From: Phycisphaerales bacterium
Lineage (GTDB): Bacteria > Planctomycetota > Phycisphaerae > Phycisphaerales > UBA1924
NCBI GenBank assembly: GCA_017640485.1
Contig: JAEPQP010000014.1
Location: forward strand, 1 to 36,059
Direction: 5' to 3'
Length of the DNA stretch: 36,059 bases
Under the pieces are notes generated by a model. It was not told the origin of the DNA, ran no database searches, and was given only the letters and a program-made list of their open reading frames with translations. Position numbers and translations under genes: made by a program. Each line of letters begins with the position of its first letter. The stretch's first letter is position 1. Shown in pieces: positions 21,031-28,033 of this stretch.

Positions 21031-22274
21031 GTGGTGAACAACGAACATCATTCCCGAAGGGGAAGATCGAGGTGGTGCTGCTGGAGGGGACGCATCCATC
21101 GGGGACGGCGTTGATCGAGCGCGAGGGGTTCAGTGTGCGCACGATGAGCGGGGCGCTGGAGGGCGGGGAGCTTCTTGAAGCGGTTGGGCGGGCGCATGTG
21201 GTGGGCGTTCGGTCCAAGACGCAGCTGACTGGGGAGGTCTTGAGACAATGCGAGCGGCTGCTCGCGGTGGGGTGTTTTTGTGCGGGGACGAATCAGGTTG
21301 ATCTGGAGGTTGCGGGATCGATGGGGGTTCCGGTGTTCAACTCGCCGTTCAGTAATACGAGGTCGGTCGCGGAGCTGACGATCAGCGAGATCATCGCGCT
21401 GCATCGTCGGGTGTCGCATCGTTCGGCGCTTTTGCACAAGGGGGAGTGGGACAAGAGCGCGGAGCGGTCGCACGAGGTGCGTGGGCGTGTGCTGGGGATT
21501 GTGGGGTACGGGCATATCGGTTCGCAGGTGAGTGTTCTCGCGGAGTCGATGGGGATGCGGGTGGTGTTCTTTGATTGCGAGAGCAAGCTGCCGCTGGGGA
21601 ACGCGGACGCGGCGGGATCGCTGGAGGAGTTGCTTTCGGTGAGTGATGTGGTATCGCTGCATGTTCCTGAGACGGAGGCGACGCGGGGGCTGATGGATCG
21701 GGCGCGGATCGGGATGATGAAGGAGGGGGCGTATCTGATTAATAACGCGCGTGGGTCGGCGGTGGATCTGGAAGCGCTGCGCGAGGCGGTGGATTCTGGA
21801 CGGATCGCGGGTGCGGCGGTGGATGTGTTTCCTGAGGAGCCTGCGAAGCGGGGTGAGGGGTTTGTGAATGTGATGCAGGGGGCGGAGAATGTGATCCTGA
21901 CTCCGCATGTTGGGGGATCGACGATGGAGGCGCAGGAGGCGATCAGTGTGGATGCGGCTCAGAAGTTGATCCGGTTTATGAATCGGGGGACGACGACAGG
22001 AGCGGTGAATGTTCCCAATGTGGATCTGCCATCTCAGGAGGTGGAGGGGGTGCGCTCGCATCGAATTCTGAACTTTCACCAGAATGTGCCTGGGGTGCTT
22101 GGGAAGTTTCATGAGGCGGCGAGCGGGCTGGGGGTGAACATCAATGGGCAGTATTTGAGGACGGCGGGGGATATCGGGTATGTGGTGCTGGATGCGGACC
22201 CGAGCGGAGCGGAGGGGCTGAAGGACGCGATGGAGGGGATCGGAGAGTCGATCCGGACTCGGATGCTGTGGTAA
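21027..22274 (+). CDS. serA: D-3-phosphoglycerate dehydrogenase with C-terminal ACT domain
   Basis: First enzyme of serine synthesis, oxidising 3-phosphoglycerate to phosphohydroxypyruvate with NAD. The NAD-binding motif is LGIVGYGHIGSQ with an Asp at the end of the following strand (FFDCESK). Catalytic residues are in NNARGSAVDLEAL (Arg), DVFPEEP (Glu) and ILTPHVGGSTMEAQ (His). The last 75 residues form an ACT domain (VPGVLGKFHEAASGLGVNIN), so feedback inhibition by serine is likely. At 415 residues it is of the short, E. coli-like type. It begins with TTG overlapping the uppP TGA (TTGA), with GGGAGG upstream. glyA, which uses serine, is about 12 kb away in the window. Confidence 0.94.
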   Translation: MSGEQRTSFPKGKIEVVLLEGTHPSGTALIEREGFSVRTMSGALEGGELLEAVGRAHVVGVRSKTQLTGEVLRQCERLLAVGCFCAGTNQVDLEVAGSMGVPVFNSPFSNTRSVAELTISEIIALHRRVSHRSALLHKGEWDKSAERSHEVRGRVLGIVGYGHIGSQVSVLAESMGMRVVFFDCESKLPLGNADAAGSLEELLSVSDVVSLHVPETEATRGLMDRARIGMMKEGAYLINNARGSAVDLEALREAVDSGRIAGAAVDVFPEEPAKRGEGFVNVMQGAENVILTPHVGGSTMEAQEAISVDAAQKLIRFMNRGTTTGAVNVPNVDLPSQEVEGVRSHRILNFHQNVPGVLGKFHEAASGLGVNINGQYLRTAGDIGYVVLDADPSGAEGLKDAMEGIGESIRTRMLW

Positions 22275-22303
22275 AAGAGGGGTGGGTTGCGAACAATCCT
22301 TGC

Positions 22304-22948
22304 ATGCCTACTTTCCAGCGCTCGTCTGAGTCTCTTGAACATACTGAAGTGATTGCAAAGGACTTTGCGGCGGTGCTGCGCAGCGGGGATCTTGTGCGAT
22401 TGGTCGGGGAGATGGGGGCGGGGAAGACCACCTTTGTGCGACTGGTCGCTCATGAGCTCGGGGTGGACGCGTCGCTCGTCAGCTCCCCCACTTTCGTATT
22501 GATGAACAACTATCCGTGCGTGGTCAATGGCGAGGAGGGGTCGATCGCCCACCTGGATTGTTACCGGTTCGGGGACGAGGACGAGCTTGATGCGCTGGGG
22601 TGGGATCGGGTGATGGGTGATGGGTCGATCGTTTTGGTGGAATGGCCTGAGCGGATTGATTCGGTGCTTGGGGAAGATGTTAAAGCGTGCACGGTGACGA
22701 TCTCGCATGTGGACGAGGGGTCGCGGGGGTTTGTGTTCGAGGTTCCTGAGTCGTGGATGGATCGGGCTTCGGCGCTGGCGCTGACGGCGAAGGACTGGGC
22801 GAAGTGTCCGGTGACGGGGGAGCGGGTGCATCCGGAGAGTGCGAGCTGGCCGTTTAGTAGCGAGCGGGCGCGGATGAGTGATCTGCACGGGTGGATGAAC
22901 GAGAAGTACACGGTGAGTCGTCCGGTGGACGAGTCGGACTTTGAGTGA
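22304..22948 (+). CDS. tsaE: TsaE (t6A37 tRNA modification ATPase) with C-terminal YacG-like tail
   Basis: The N-terminal 150 residues are TsaE, the P-loop ATPase that works with TsaB and TsaD in making threonylcarbamoyl-adenosine at position 37 of tRNAs. The Walker A motif is GEMGAGKT (35-42), followed by SPTFVLMNNY, HLDCYR (83-88) and LVEWPER (111-117). The last 47 residues resemble the small zinc protein YacG: CPVTGERV at 168-175, then PFSSERARMSDLHGW. In YacG the cysteines read CPxC and FCSxRC; here three of four are replaced (T171, S185, A189). The ATG at 22304 is chosen. A GTG at 22268 overlapping the serA stop is an alternative. Confidence 0.88.
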   Translation: MPTFQRSSESLEHTEVIAKDFAAVLRSGDLVRLVGEMGAGKTTFVRLVAHELGVDASLVSSPTFVLMNNYPCVVNGEEGSIAHLDCYRFGDEDELDALGWDRVMGDGSIVLVEWPERIDSVLGEDVKACTVTISHVDEGSRGFVFEVPESWMDRASALALTAKDWAKCPVTGERVHPESASWPFSSERARMSDLHGWMNEKYTVSRPVDESDFE

Positions 22949-24617: not shown

Positions 24618-25331
24618 ATGACCTCTCCACTTCTTCGTCGTTCGTGTGCGCTTTCTGTCGGTCTCTCTGTGCTTGCTGCTGCGAATGCGGCGGGCGAGTT
24701 GGTCGTTTTTGAAAATACCAACCCGGATCTAGAGACCCTGACCTATTACCAGGGGGGGAATGGGCTTGAGGTGCTGGGGCAGTCGCTTGATGTGACGCGG
24801 AGTGCGCACGATCAGCCCGCGCTTGGTGAACTCCCGGTGGGTTCGTTTATGATCGCTTGGTTCCAGGGGAATGATCGTCGGTTCGGTGATTGGATCTGGA
24901 TGGGGACGGGTCGGAGCACGCTGGTGGCGCAGGCGGACGAGTTCGTGGATGTGATCGATCCGAAGACGAACTTCCCTGTCGGGTATCGCGCGCCGGGGGA
25001 CTTTGATGATGGAAGCGAGATCGGTGAGGATTCCAACTGGGCGTTCGGCTGGGTGGCGATGCACACGAGTATCCCGACAGCACCGACGGACGAGGGGGTG
25101 TACTTCACGGACGAGACCTTTACGATCGGGCTTCAGTTTTTGATGGACGACGGGTTCCATTACGGGTTCGCGGAGTTGTCGCGCACGGCGTTTGATCCGA
25201 ACGATCCGCTCAGCATTGAGTTTCGTGCGGTGCGATGGGGGTATGAGACCACGGCGGGGGTTGGGGTTCCATCCGTTGGGAGTGCTGCAGCTTTGTTGAT
25301 GGGGCTTGGCGGGGTGCGTCGTCGGCGGTGA
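24618..25331 (+). CDS. Secreted PEP-CTERM-like protein, 237 aa
   Basis: A signal peptide (1-24, ending ANAAG) is followed by a beta-rich domain with many Trp and Asp residues. The C-terminal sorting tail is VGVPSVGSAAALLMGLGGVR plus three more arginines: a short VPS motif, a hydrophobic helix and a basic end. This is the planctomycete-type relative of PEP-CTERM, recognised by an exosortase-like enzyme that is not in this window. The internal sequence (FGDWIWMGTGRS, VYFTDETFTIGLQF) matches no family I know. It is divergent in function from the exb genes upstream and convergent with the Fur homologue. Confidence 0.85.
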   Translation: MTSPLLRRSCALSVGLSVLAAANAAGELVVFENTNPDLETLTYYQGGNGLEVLGQSLDVTRSAHDQPALGELPVGSFMIAWFQGNDRRFGDWIWMGTGRSTLVAQADEFVDVIDPKTNFPVGYRAPGDFDDGSEIGEDSNWAFGWVAMHTSIPTAPTDEGVYFTDETFTIGLQFLMDDGFHYGFAELSRTAFDPNDPLSIEFRAVRWGYETTAGVGVPSVGSAAALLMGLGGVRRRR

Positions 25332-25364: not shown

Positions 25365-25838
25365 TTAATTTGATGACACGAAGATTTGGAGTTTGTGTGC
25401 TTGGGCGGTCAGGCCGTGGGCGGCGCAGATTTTGTCGCGGAGTTCGATGAGCTCGGGGACTTCTGTGGAGATGATGTGTCCGGTCTCGGTGTCGATGAGG
25501 AGGGTGTTTCCGGTTTGTCCGATCGCGAGTTGGTAGTGGGATTGCTCGCGGTCGACGAGGACTTGCTGGATGATCCCGGCGGATTCGAGGAGTTTGAGGG
25601 TGCGGTAGACGGTGGCTTTGGAGACGGAGTGGCCTTGGGCTTTGAGGGTGTCGAGGAGTTGGTCGGCTTCGAAGAGGGTGTCGAAGGCGATGATGGTGTC
25701 GAGGATCTGGGCACGCTCGGGGGTGTACTTGAGGTTCTCGGATTTGAGGGCGCGGCGGAAGATGGCGCAGAGGGGTTCGATCAGTTCGTTGGGAGCTGAG
25801 GAATCGGTCGAGTTGGGCTTGATCGGTTCGAGCGGCAT
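25365..25838 (-). CDS. Fur-family transcriptional regulator lacking metal ligands
   Basis: A 157-residue protein with the Fur winged-helix domain (about 20-100): LKYTPERAQILDTIIAFDTLFEADQLL, SVSKATVYRTLKLLESAGII and HYQL. The dimerisation half has lost the usual metal sites. Where Fur has HHHHLICxxCGxI, this protein has GQTGNTLLIDTETGHII (107-123), with no CxxC and only one His in the segment. It may be a metal-independent regulator or sense something else. The ATG at 25838 is preceded by TACAAT with five bases between. The frame's upstream extension runs through the divergent gene and is rejected. Confidence 0.9.
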   Translation of the reverse strand: MPLEPIKPNSTDSSAPNELIEPLCAIFRRALKSENLKYTPERAQILDTIIAFDTLFEADQLLDTLKAQGHSVSKATVYRTLKLLESAGIIQQVLVDREQSHYQLAIGQTGNTLLIDTETGHIISTEVPELIELRDKICAAHGLTAQAHKLQIFVSSN

Positions 25839-25843
25839 GGGGG

Positions 25844-25868
25844 ATTGTATGCGTGGTTCGTGTACAAT
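25844..25868. promoter_or_regulatory. Divergent back-to-back -10 boxes (inverted ATTGTA...TACAAT)
   Basis: ATTGTA at 25844-25849 and TACAAT at 25863-25868 form an inverted repeat in the 38-bp spacer between the fur homologue and the glycosyltransferase gene. Each reads TACAAT towards its own gene and ends five or eight bases before that gene's ATG, so both could be leaderless. The dyad could also be an operator for the Fur homologue itself. Confidence 0.6.
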
Positions 25869-25876
25869 CCGAGCAG

Positions 25877-28033
25877 ATGCAGGCGAGCACAGAATCACAG
25901 AGCGGGGCTGACGGGCGAGGCGTGGTCGGGCCGATGCGCGTGGGCGCGATCTGGGGCGGGGTGCTGGTCGCGGCGGTGGTCGCATCCGCGGCGATCGGTG
26001 AGGGGGGGAGCGTGCTGGTGCGGGTCGCAACGGTTGTTGAGATCTTGACGGGGAGCGGGTGGATGGTGCTGGTGTATCTGCTGGGCGCTTGGGGGTATGG
26101 GCGGGTGATGTGGTTTGGACGCCGTCATGGGGGCGATGATCGCGGGGTGGTGTGGGTTGCTCGTTTGGGGATCGGGGTTTCGGTGATGTTGTCGGCGACG
26201 CATCTGATGGGGGTGATGGGGATTTTGAACTCGATCTCGGCGTGGGTGGTGAGCGGGATCGGGATCGGGCTGGGGTTGGTCGGGGTGGTGCGGGATCAGG
26301 CGACGGCGCAGCGCCTGGGTGGGCTCGATCGTTCGCTGGTGATGGTCGGGAGCGTGGGCGTCGCGGCGGTTGGGTTGATGGTGGTGATGGCGAGCAATCC
26401 GGCGGGGGTGTTGTGGGATTCGGAGTTCAGGGGGTTTGATTCGTTGAGTTATCACTTGGAGCTTCCGAGGGCGTGGATGGAGGCGGGTCGGGTGTGGCCT
26501 GTGGATTGGAATGTGTATTCGTACCTGCCTTCGTATATCGAGGCGGCGTACATGCACATGGGCTTGTACGCGAGTGATGGGCAGAGCGGGCTCGGGCTTG
26601 CGGGGGACGGGGGACGCGGGATCTACGCGGCGCAGTATCTGAGTGTCGCGATGAGTGTGCTGTCGGCGGTGGTGTGCGGGGTGGTCGGGCGTCGGGCGTG
26701 CGAGCGGTTTGGGGTTGAGACGCGGGTGGCTCGGGTTGCGGGCTGGGTTGGCGGGGTGTTGGTGCTGTTGACGCCTTGGGTGGTGGTGGTTGGAACGCTG
26801 TCGTACAACGAGTCGGCGGTGGTGCTGCTGACGATGTGCGCGTTCGGGATCGCGATGAGCAGCGAGTGGGGTGTGGTGCGCCGAGTGGTTGGGGTTGCGG
26901 TGGTCATGGGTGTTGCGTGCGGGTGCAAGCCGACGGCGTTGTTTTTGGCGGCGCCGATGGTCGGGGTGGTGCTGCTTGCGAACGCGGAAAGGAAACAGTG
27001 GGCGAGGATGGTTGTGGTGGGATCGGTGGTTGGGGTGGTGGTGTTGCTGCCTTGGTTGATCAGGAATGAGATCGCGTCGGGGAATCCGGTGTTTCCGCAG
27101 TTGAGTGGTTTCTTTGGTGAGGGGCACTGGAGCGGTCGGCAGCACGATGTGTATGCGTCGGCGCACTCGTTCGATGGGGGTGTGGTGGATCGGGTGAAGC
27201 TGTTGGTGATTCCAGATGCGAGCGGCGCGACGCATGTGTCGCGGTTTCGGGGGTTGACCAATGCGCAGTGGGGATTGACGGCGGGGTTTGGGTTGATCGG
27301 TCTCTTGGTGCTGCTTGGTCAGCGGCGGACGCATCGGGCCGGGTTTGTGGTCGCAGTTGGCATTGGGATGGTGCTGGTGGCGTGGTTGGGGTTGACGCAT
27401 GTGCAGTCGAGATTTCTTGTGCCGATGGTTGGTGTGCTTGGGGTGCTTGGTGGGATCGGGCTTGCGATGACGGGGATGCGGCGGGTCCTGGTGCCTGTGG
27501 GGTTGCTGGGTTCGGTGGTGTGGTTGGGGGTGTGGGTGACTGGGCAAGCGGGCGGGCACCCGAATCGGATGCTGGTCGCGGGGATCGGGGCGTACACGGG
27601 GGAACTCAATGCGGTGGGGTTTGATGAGGTGTTGTGGTGGAACGGGGTGAACTCGGTCGCGGATGATGGTCGGGCGGTGTATTTGGTTGGGGATGCGACG
27701 CCGAGCTATGTGCGATCTGAAGTGGTGTACAACACGGTGTACGACGATTGGTTGATCGGGGGGTTGATGCGCGCGTTTCCGGATGATCCATTGGCGTGGA
27801 ACCAGGAACTGGCCCAGCGGGGGATCGGCTGGGCGGTGGTGAGTCTGGGAGAGATCGAGCGGTATGAGCGTTCGGGATGGGGTGATCCTGAGGTGAGCGC
27901 TGAGGCGGTGGTTGCGTGGACGCGATCACTTGGGGATCCTGTGATGGTGTGGGGGGAGAGCGGGCGGGCGTTGTTCCGGTTGGATGGGACTACGATCATC
28001 GGGCGACAGACCATGAGGGGCGACGATGAGTGA
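25877..28033 (+). CDS. GT-C (PMT/ArnT-like) membrane glycosyltransferase, 718 aa
   Basis: A large polytopic protein with about twelve helices. The first exported loop holds the acidic GT-C motif EFRGFDSLSYHLELPRAW, and WPVDWNVYSYLPSYIEAAY follows, as in planctomycete relatives of protein mannosyl- and lipid A aminoarabinose transferases. These enzymes use polyprenyl-phosphate sugars at the outer face of the inner membrane. A C-terminal soluble domain (about 570-718) follows the helices. The ATG at 25877 is chosen because TACAAT ends eight bases upstream; a GTG/ATG further up lies in the divergent spacer. The flippase-like gene overlaps its stop, and uppP lies 5 kb upstream. Confidence 0.85.
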   Translation: MQASTESQSGADGRGVVGPMRVGAIWGGVLVAAVVASAAIGEGGSVLVRVATVVEILTGSGWMVLVYLLGAWGYGRVMWFGRRHGGDDRGVVWVARLGIGVSVMLSATHLMGVMGILNSISAWVVSGIGIGLGLVGVVRDQATAQRLGGLDRSLVMVGSVGVAAVGLMVVMASNPAGVLWDSEFRGFDSLSYHLELPRAWMEAGRVWPVDWNVYSYLPSYIEAAYMHMGLYASDGQSGLGLAGDGGRGIYAAQYLSVAMSVLSAVVCGVVGRRACERFGVETRVARVAGWVGGVLVLLTPWVVVVGTLSYNESAVVLLTMCAFGIAMSSEWGVVRRVVGVAVVMGVACGCKPTALFLAAPMVGVVLLANAERKQWARMVVVGSVVGVVVLLPWLIRNEIASGNPVFPQLSGFFGEGHWSGRQHDVYASAHSFDGGVVDRVKLLVIPDASGATHVSRFRGLTNAQWGLTAGFGLIGLLVLLGQRRTHRAGFVVAVGIGMVLVAWLGLTHVQSRFLVPMVGVLGVLGGIGLAMTGMRRVLVPVGLLGSVVWLGVWVTGQAGGHPNRMLVAGIGAYTGELNAVGFDEVLWWNGVNSVADDGRAVYLVGDATPSYVRSEVVYNTVYDDWLIGGLMRAFPDDPLAWNQELAQRGIGWAVVSLGEIERYERSGWGDPEVSAEAVVAWTRSLGDPVMVWGESGRALFRLDGTTIIGRQTMRGDDE

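Follow-up and report, generated by a model that had tools for sequence, protein, structure and literature searches.

A conserved Fur subfamily of Phycisphaerales with dismantled metal sites

The Phycisphaerales contain a conserved Fur subfamily in which the metal sites have been dismantled. The member described here is a winged-helix regulator of 157 residues without canonical metal sites, encoded on the reverse strand at coordinates 25365–25838 of the window (the whole 36,059-nucleotide stretch of Phycisphaerales DNA that was analysed). It is fairly likely to be a metal-independent Fur-fold regulator descended from a canonical metal-sensing Fur.

Family membership, metal ligands and their history

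An earlier note on this DNA had called the protein a Fur homologue, and it is a genuine full-length member of the family. It matches Pfam FUR (PF01475) over residues 34–152 with 78 bits (cut-off 23.1), above the gathering score and across the whole domain, both winged helix and dimerization domain; the ATG start (25836–25838, reverse strand) is kept in relatives. Sequence comparison with proteins of known structure ranks C. jejuni Fur, R. leguminosarum Mur and the Fur proteins of other species closest. Structure prediction, which the earlier note had proposed as a check, gives the Fur two-domain layout in an AlphaFold2 model of medium confidence (mean pLDDT 72.7) built from 15 orthologues, and among the matches listed in a fold search with this model all are Fur, PerR, Zur or Mur proteins, with Fur structures the best and TM-scores to PDB entries of ~0.5. 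The NCBIfam equivalogs for Fur, Zur, PerR and Irr are not reached (best 43 bits, cut-off 200), and "ferric uptake regulator" as an annotation of these proteins would mislead.

The region that canonically reads HHHHLICxxCG is HYQLAIGQTGNTLLIDTETGHIISTE in the regulator, with neither HHDH nor CxxC. Ligands were mapped by alignment to P. aeruginosa Fur (1MZB, its sequence confirmed by a full-length match to that chain), and with this protein and more than 100 relatives aligned, codons 110–113 (GNTL; 25500–25511, reverse strand, counted from the start at 25838) take the HHDH position of canonical Fur. The two metal sites of 1MZB, H32-E80-H89-E100 (the regulatory or hinge site) and H86-D88-E107-H124, correspond to L55, Q103, L113 and S124 and to G110, T112, I131 and H148 respectively, H148 being the sole ligand kept at the second site. 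The positions of the first CxxC are D116 and T119, and the C-terminal CxxC is absent from a protein that ends in QIFVSSN. In all, seven of the eight site residues and every CxxC cysteine have been lost, and the ligand loss is fixed in all 19 congeneric sequences, far beyond chance. The make-up of both P. aeruginosa sites as described in PMC6613475 agrees with the residues used here.

The earlier note had reported lost metal-binding residues and a missing CxxC; it was right on both counts and understated the extent. Its further view, that Fe, Zn or Mn is probably not sensed in the usual way, is supported at the level of sequence, and the regulator probably cannot sense these metals through the usual Fur sites. 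Absence of CxxC is by itself insufficient as evidence for loss of sensing: P. aeruginosa Fur, M. gryphiswaldense Fur and R. leguminosarum Mur are without it too, yet keep the other metal sites; what matters for metal sensing is the loss of the HEHE site. These three proteins (1mzb, 4raz and 5fd5) are high-ranking sequence and fold matches of the regulator and, like it, have no CxxC structural site, but they keep all eight ligands (HEHE, HDEH) and sense Mn or Fe. Canonical planctomycete Fur proteins (e.g. L119 of class family f8 and L099 of phylum family f66) are homologous over the whole length and have the same DNA-contact residues, but retain the HEHE site together with both CxxC motifs. Among described cases the PgFur subfamily of P. 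gingivalis comes closest; it also has a Fur fold without the His-rich regulatory motif and is proposed to act without regulatory metal, yet it keeps two CXXC motifs, one structural zinc per monomer and a Lys-rich tail, whereas the regulator has no CxxC at all (PMC6613475). A search of the open-access literature for such Fur proteins in Planctomycetes or Phycisphaerae found nothing.

Orthologues are present in 56 of 61 relatives, nearly always as one strong match per genome, and in 48 of the 50 relatives of good quality; they also occur at 14 loci whose titles name Phycisphaerales, Phycisphaerae or related MAGs, and the outgroups were added by extending the searches to the class and phylum. Three near-complete genomes of the order (G042, G054 and G196) yielded no match to the gene. 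Among 28 canonical planctomycete Fur proteins, every one has His at position 55, Glu at position 124 and the two cysteines of the first CxxC, and 27 each have Glu at position 103 and His at position 113. In class family f9 the CxxC is gone and the H32 position is Pro; in class family f11 the regulatory site reads LEYE, with Leu at the H32 position, and one CxxC cysteine is left. Most of the order has Gln at the E80 position. At the regulatory site, its families other than the window's typically show a hydrophobic residue, then Gln, a mixed position and Glu; they keep Glu at 124 and sometimes His at 113, and a residual metal site may work in them. The window's family has L/I/V, Gln, mostly Leu and a mixed position, all four ligands being replaced in nearly all members, and its genus has L, Q, L and S/T/R (19/19). 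In a FastTree phylogeny f9, f11 and the order branch off one after another (support 0.984 for f9, f11 and the order together, 0.65 for f11 with the order, and 0.92 for the order), which allows the losses to be interpreted as stepwise, in a sequence whose middle branchings are moderately supported.

Elsewhere in the phylum, a relative of family f70 (L098; G250:C1:731357-732283) carries a tandem pair of canonical Fur domains within a single open frame, and genome G358 also has two adjacent Fur matches.

DNA binding and candidate signals

In the proposed history the ligands of a canonical metal-sensing Fur ancestor would have been replaced stepwise and metal sensing lost, leaving a protein predicted to fold still as a winged-helix domain plus a dimerization domain, which should bind DNA as a dimer. 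It is predicted to read DNA through K37, Y78 and R79, the first present in 55 of 56 orthologues and the other two in all 56. These residues align with K15, Y56 and R57 of M. gryphiswaldense Fur, in which Lys15, Tyr56 and Arg57 read DNA and mutation of the H33/H90 site abolished regulation (PMC4506495); by alignment, both positions of the latter site are Leu in the regulator. The hinge site normally bridged by metal now has Leu55, Gln103, Leu113 and Ser/Thr124, so DNA binding is probably metal-independent, and there is precedent for Fur acting without regulatory metal in PgFur and in the apo-Fur of H. pylori and C. jejuni (PMC6613475). Binding could be constitutive, set by the amount of protein, or it could respond to some other signal; Cys24, invariant and derived, is the sole clade-wide candidate for receiving it.

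Two further Fur homologues in the same genome keep more ligands, so that metal control can be exercised by other proteins. One (G000:C213) is closest to PerR/Irr models and shares with the regulator the lack of CxxC, but retains four plausible regulatory-site ligands (HEHD); the other (C91) retains HHHH and CxxC. The genome also has a strong FeoB match. A more specific mechanism, possible but rather doubtful, is that a hydrophobic L55–L113 contact replaces the inter-domain metal bridge and yields a permanently "holo-like", metal-free regulator with Cys24 as a new input; neither L55 nor L113 varies within the genus.

The search for alternative ligands covered every His, Cys, Asp, Glu and Met column of the alignment. 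Across them no conserved clade-wide replacement set of His and Cys was found, and an alternative metal site built from residues constant across the clade was rejected; only C24 is constant, in 74 of 74 sequences of f11, the order and the window's family, and it is absent from canonical relatives and f9. The earlier note had named ligands from other residues as what would refute its view; the clade as a whole has no constant set of them, and within the genus a weak site of C24, H101, C138 and H148 is possible. An unusual metal site of this kind, perhaps formed across the dimer, is unlikely: all four residues are invariant in the genus (19/19) and C24 is a novelty of f11 and the order, but H101 is His in only 33 of 46 sequences across the family, H148 is Thr in three family members, and C138 looks like a core residue (already Cys in 16 of 28 canonical Fur proteins, and Ala in 5 of 18 other members of the order), which leaves one soft ligand constant clade-wide.

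Also improbable is a thiol or other non-metal sensor, in which C24 in the first helix would report oxidation or bind a cofactor and thereby alter DNA binding. The appearance of this cysteine, within a PLCAVFRR motif, in the clade without canonical sites and its invariance there are consistent with such a role, and redox-active cysteines are known in Fur-family proteins, as PMC8229018 describes for FurA; against it, each monomer has a single Cys without a constant partner, and its conservation could be structural.

The divergent spacer and gene neighbours

The regulator is separated from the divergently transcribed gene by 38 bp (25839–25876), and the inverted ATTGTA/TACAAT pair that the earlier note described in this spacer is present. 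It is an exact 8-bp inverted pair, GGATTGTA-N13-TACAATCC (25842–25870), with arms at 25842–25849 and 25863–25870 that lie 13 bp apart and six-base cores at 25844–25849 (ATTGTA) and 25863–25868 (TACAAT). Of the two functions suggested for it, operator and paired -10 boxes, the second is plausible and is the better reading. On the reverse strand, TACAAT at 25844–25849 is a probable -10 box for the regulator, and its end lies 5 nt from that gene's ATG; on the forward strand, TACAAT at 25863–25868 is a probable -10 box of the glycosyltransferase ending 8 nt before the ATG at 25877. Such boxes recur near both starts in 18 of the 19 congeneric loci examined, as TAGAAT or TACAAT ending 5–8 nt before the regulator ATG and as TACAAT or TAGGAT on the divergent side, mostly ~8–12 nt before the start of the neighbour; at the other locus (L042) the scan found neither box, and by eye both read TATGAT. 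Two promoters set back to back, leaderless or nearly so, are the most likely content of the spacer, rather than a dedicated operator.

The earlier note's model, in which the regulator binds the dyad and represses both itself and the glycosyltransferase, is accordingly very improbable, even though the pair is exact in the window and autoregulation is frequent among Fur-family proteins. Its arms are seldom identical in relatives (mostly TAGAAT against TACAAT or TAGGAT), with the exact palindrome confined to the window; the distance between boxes varies from ~7 to 40 nt, and the offset of the divergent box from the regulator ATG from 19 to 52. The 13-bp gap also departs from the short gaps of known Fur-family boxes, and the glycosyltransferase is not beside the gene in three of the closest relatives nor outside the family.

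In a mechanically chosen set of 36 ORF starts from the window, 8 are preceded at 4–9 nt by TAnnnT, compared with 2.8% for ATGs overall; the starts were uncurated, so the binomial P of ~5e-6 is a rough figure. Genes of the window with such boxes include those at 24618, 25365, 25877, 29126, 10532 and 7589, and leaderless transcripts may be common in this genome.

The divergent neighbour (25877–28033, or from 25853, forward strand) is a probable GT-C/PMT-like membrane glycosyltransferase, weakly fitted to known families: its match to PMT_2 scores 17.4 bits, below the cut-off of 26.1, and a match to the LIC_10190 family is also below cut-off. The back-to-back arrangement given in the earlier note stands; the GT-C identity it assigned depends on these sub-cut-off matches. 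Most of the window's family has the gene beside the regulator, but it is missing there in L005–L007, which are among the closest relatives; in other families the neighbours, judged by eye, include GT2-like, homoserine-dehydrogenase-like and CYTH-like genes. Control of the glycosyltransferase as a conserved role is not supported, given these differences. A more widely shared neighbour is tsaE.

A motif upstream of the f5 orthologues, AACATAAYnnnnATTATnGGAC, was considered as an operator of the regulator and rejected, since a genome has only about one copy and the TTTAACATAA half corresponds to the XerD arm of E. coli dif. It is most likely a chromosome-dimer resolution site. In five f5 genomes (L142–L146) the probable dif site, of the form TTTAACATAA-N6-TTATCGG, immediately precedes the Fur-like gene, and in G056 it is 10 kb away (G056:C1:5419342-5419364); a variant is present on contig C199 of the window's own genome (G000:C199:1074-1096).

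Selection and cysteine loss in the lineage

That the regulator is a decaying, non-functional remnant is extremely unlikely, for although nearly all ligands are lost and the gene was not found in the three near-complete genomes named above, its orthologues are under purifying selection (pairwise dN/dS 0.08–0.35, calculated with a small Nei-Gojobori script), with intact full-length frames, 65–85% identity within the genus, invariant DNA-contact residues and conserved synteny. A pseudogene is largely ruled out by dN/dS well below 1 together with clade-wide conservation, and the metal-site-free Fur is a conserved state, not decay.

Other proteins of the lineage have also lost cysteines. At 22268–22948 of the window (forward strand) lies a fusion of TsaE with a YacG domain, each scoring above its Pfam cut-off, and the YacG zinc finger keeps one of four cysteines (CPVT...PFSSERA). 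L028, L034, L036–L039 and L041–L045 share this loss; the cysteines are kept in L057–L059, L061, L063, L065 and L066 and in the f1 members L023, L027 and L031. In ribosomal protein L31 (L153–L160; L157 in the window's own genome) the zinc cysteines are kept in f5 and f8 (CSACHPF), and the segment reads WSGSHPF in the window's genus, f2 and f4. Together the Fur, YacG and L31 losses hint at a lineage-wide loss of zinc-holding cysteines; this may be coincidence, L31 proteins without the cysteines being common elsewhere. If a hydrophobic contact does replace the metal bridge in the regulator, that change would be part of this wider loss of metal-holding cysteines, with TsaE-YacG and L31.

For the favored reading of a metal-independent regulator derived from a metal-sensing one, the living intermediates at each step of ligand loss form a natural series in which to ask which ligands matter for DNA binding, and, Fur being the textbook metal sensor, how a metalloregulator can be rewired.
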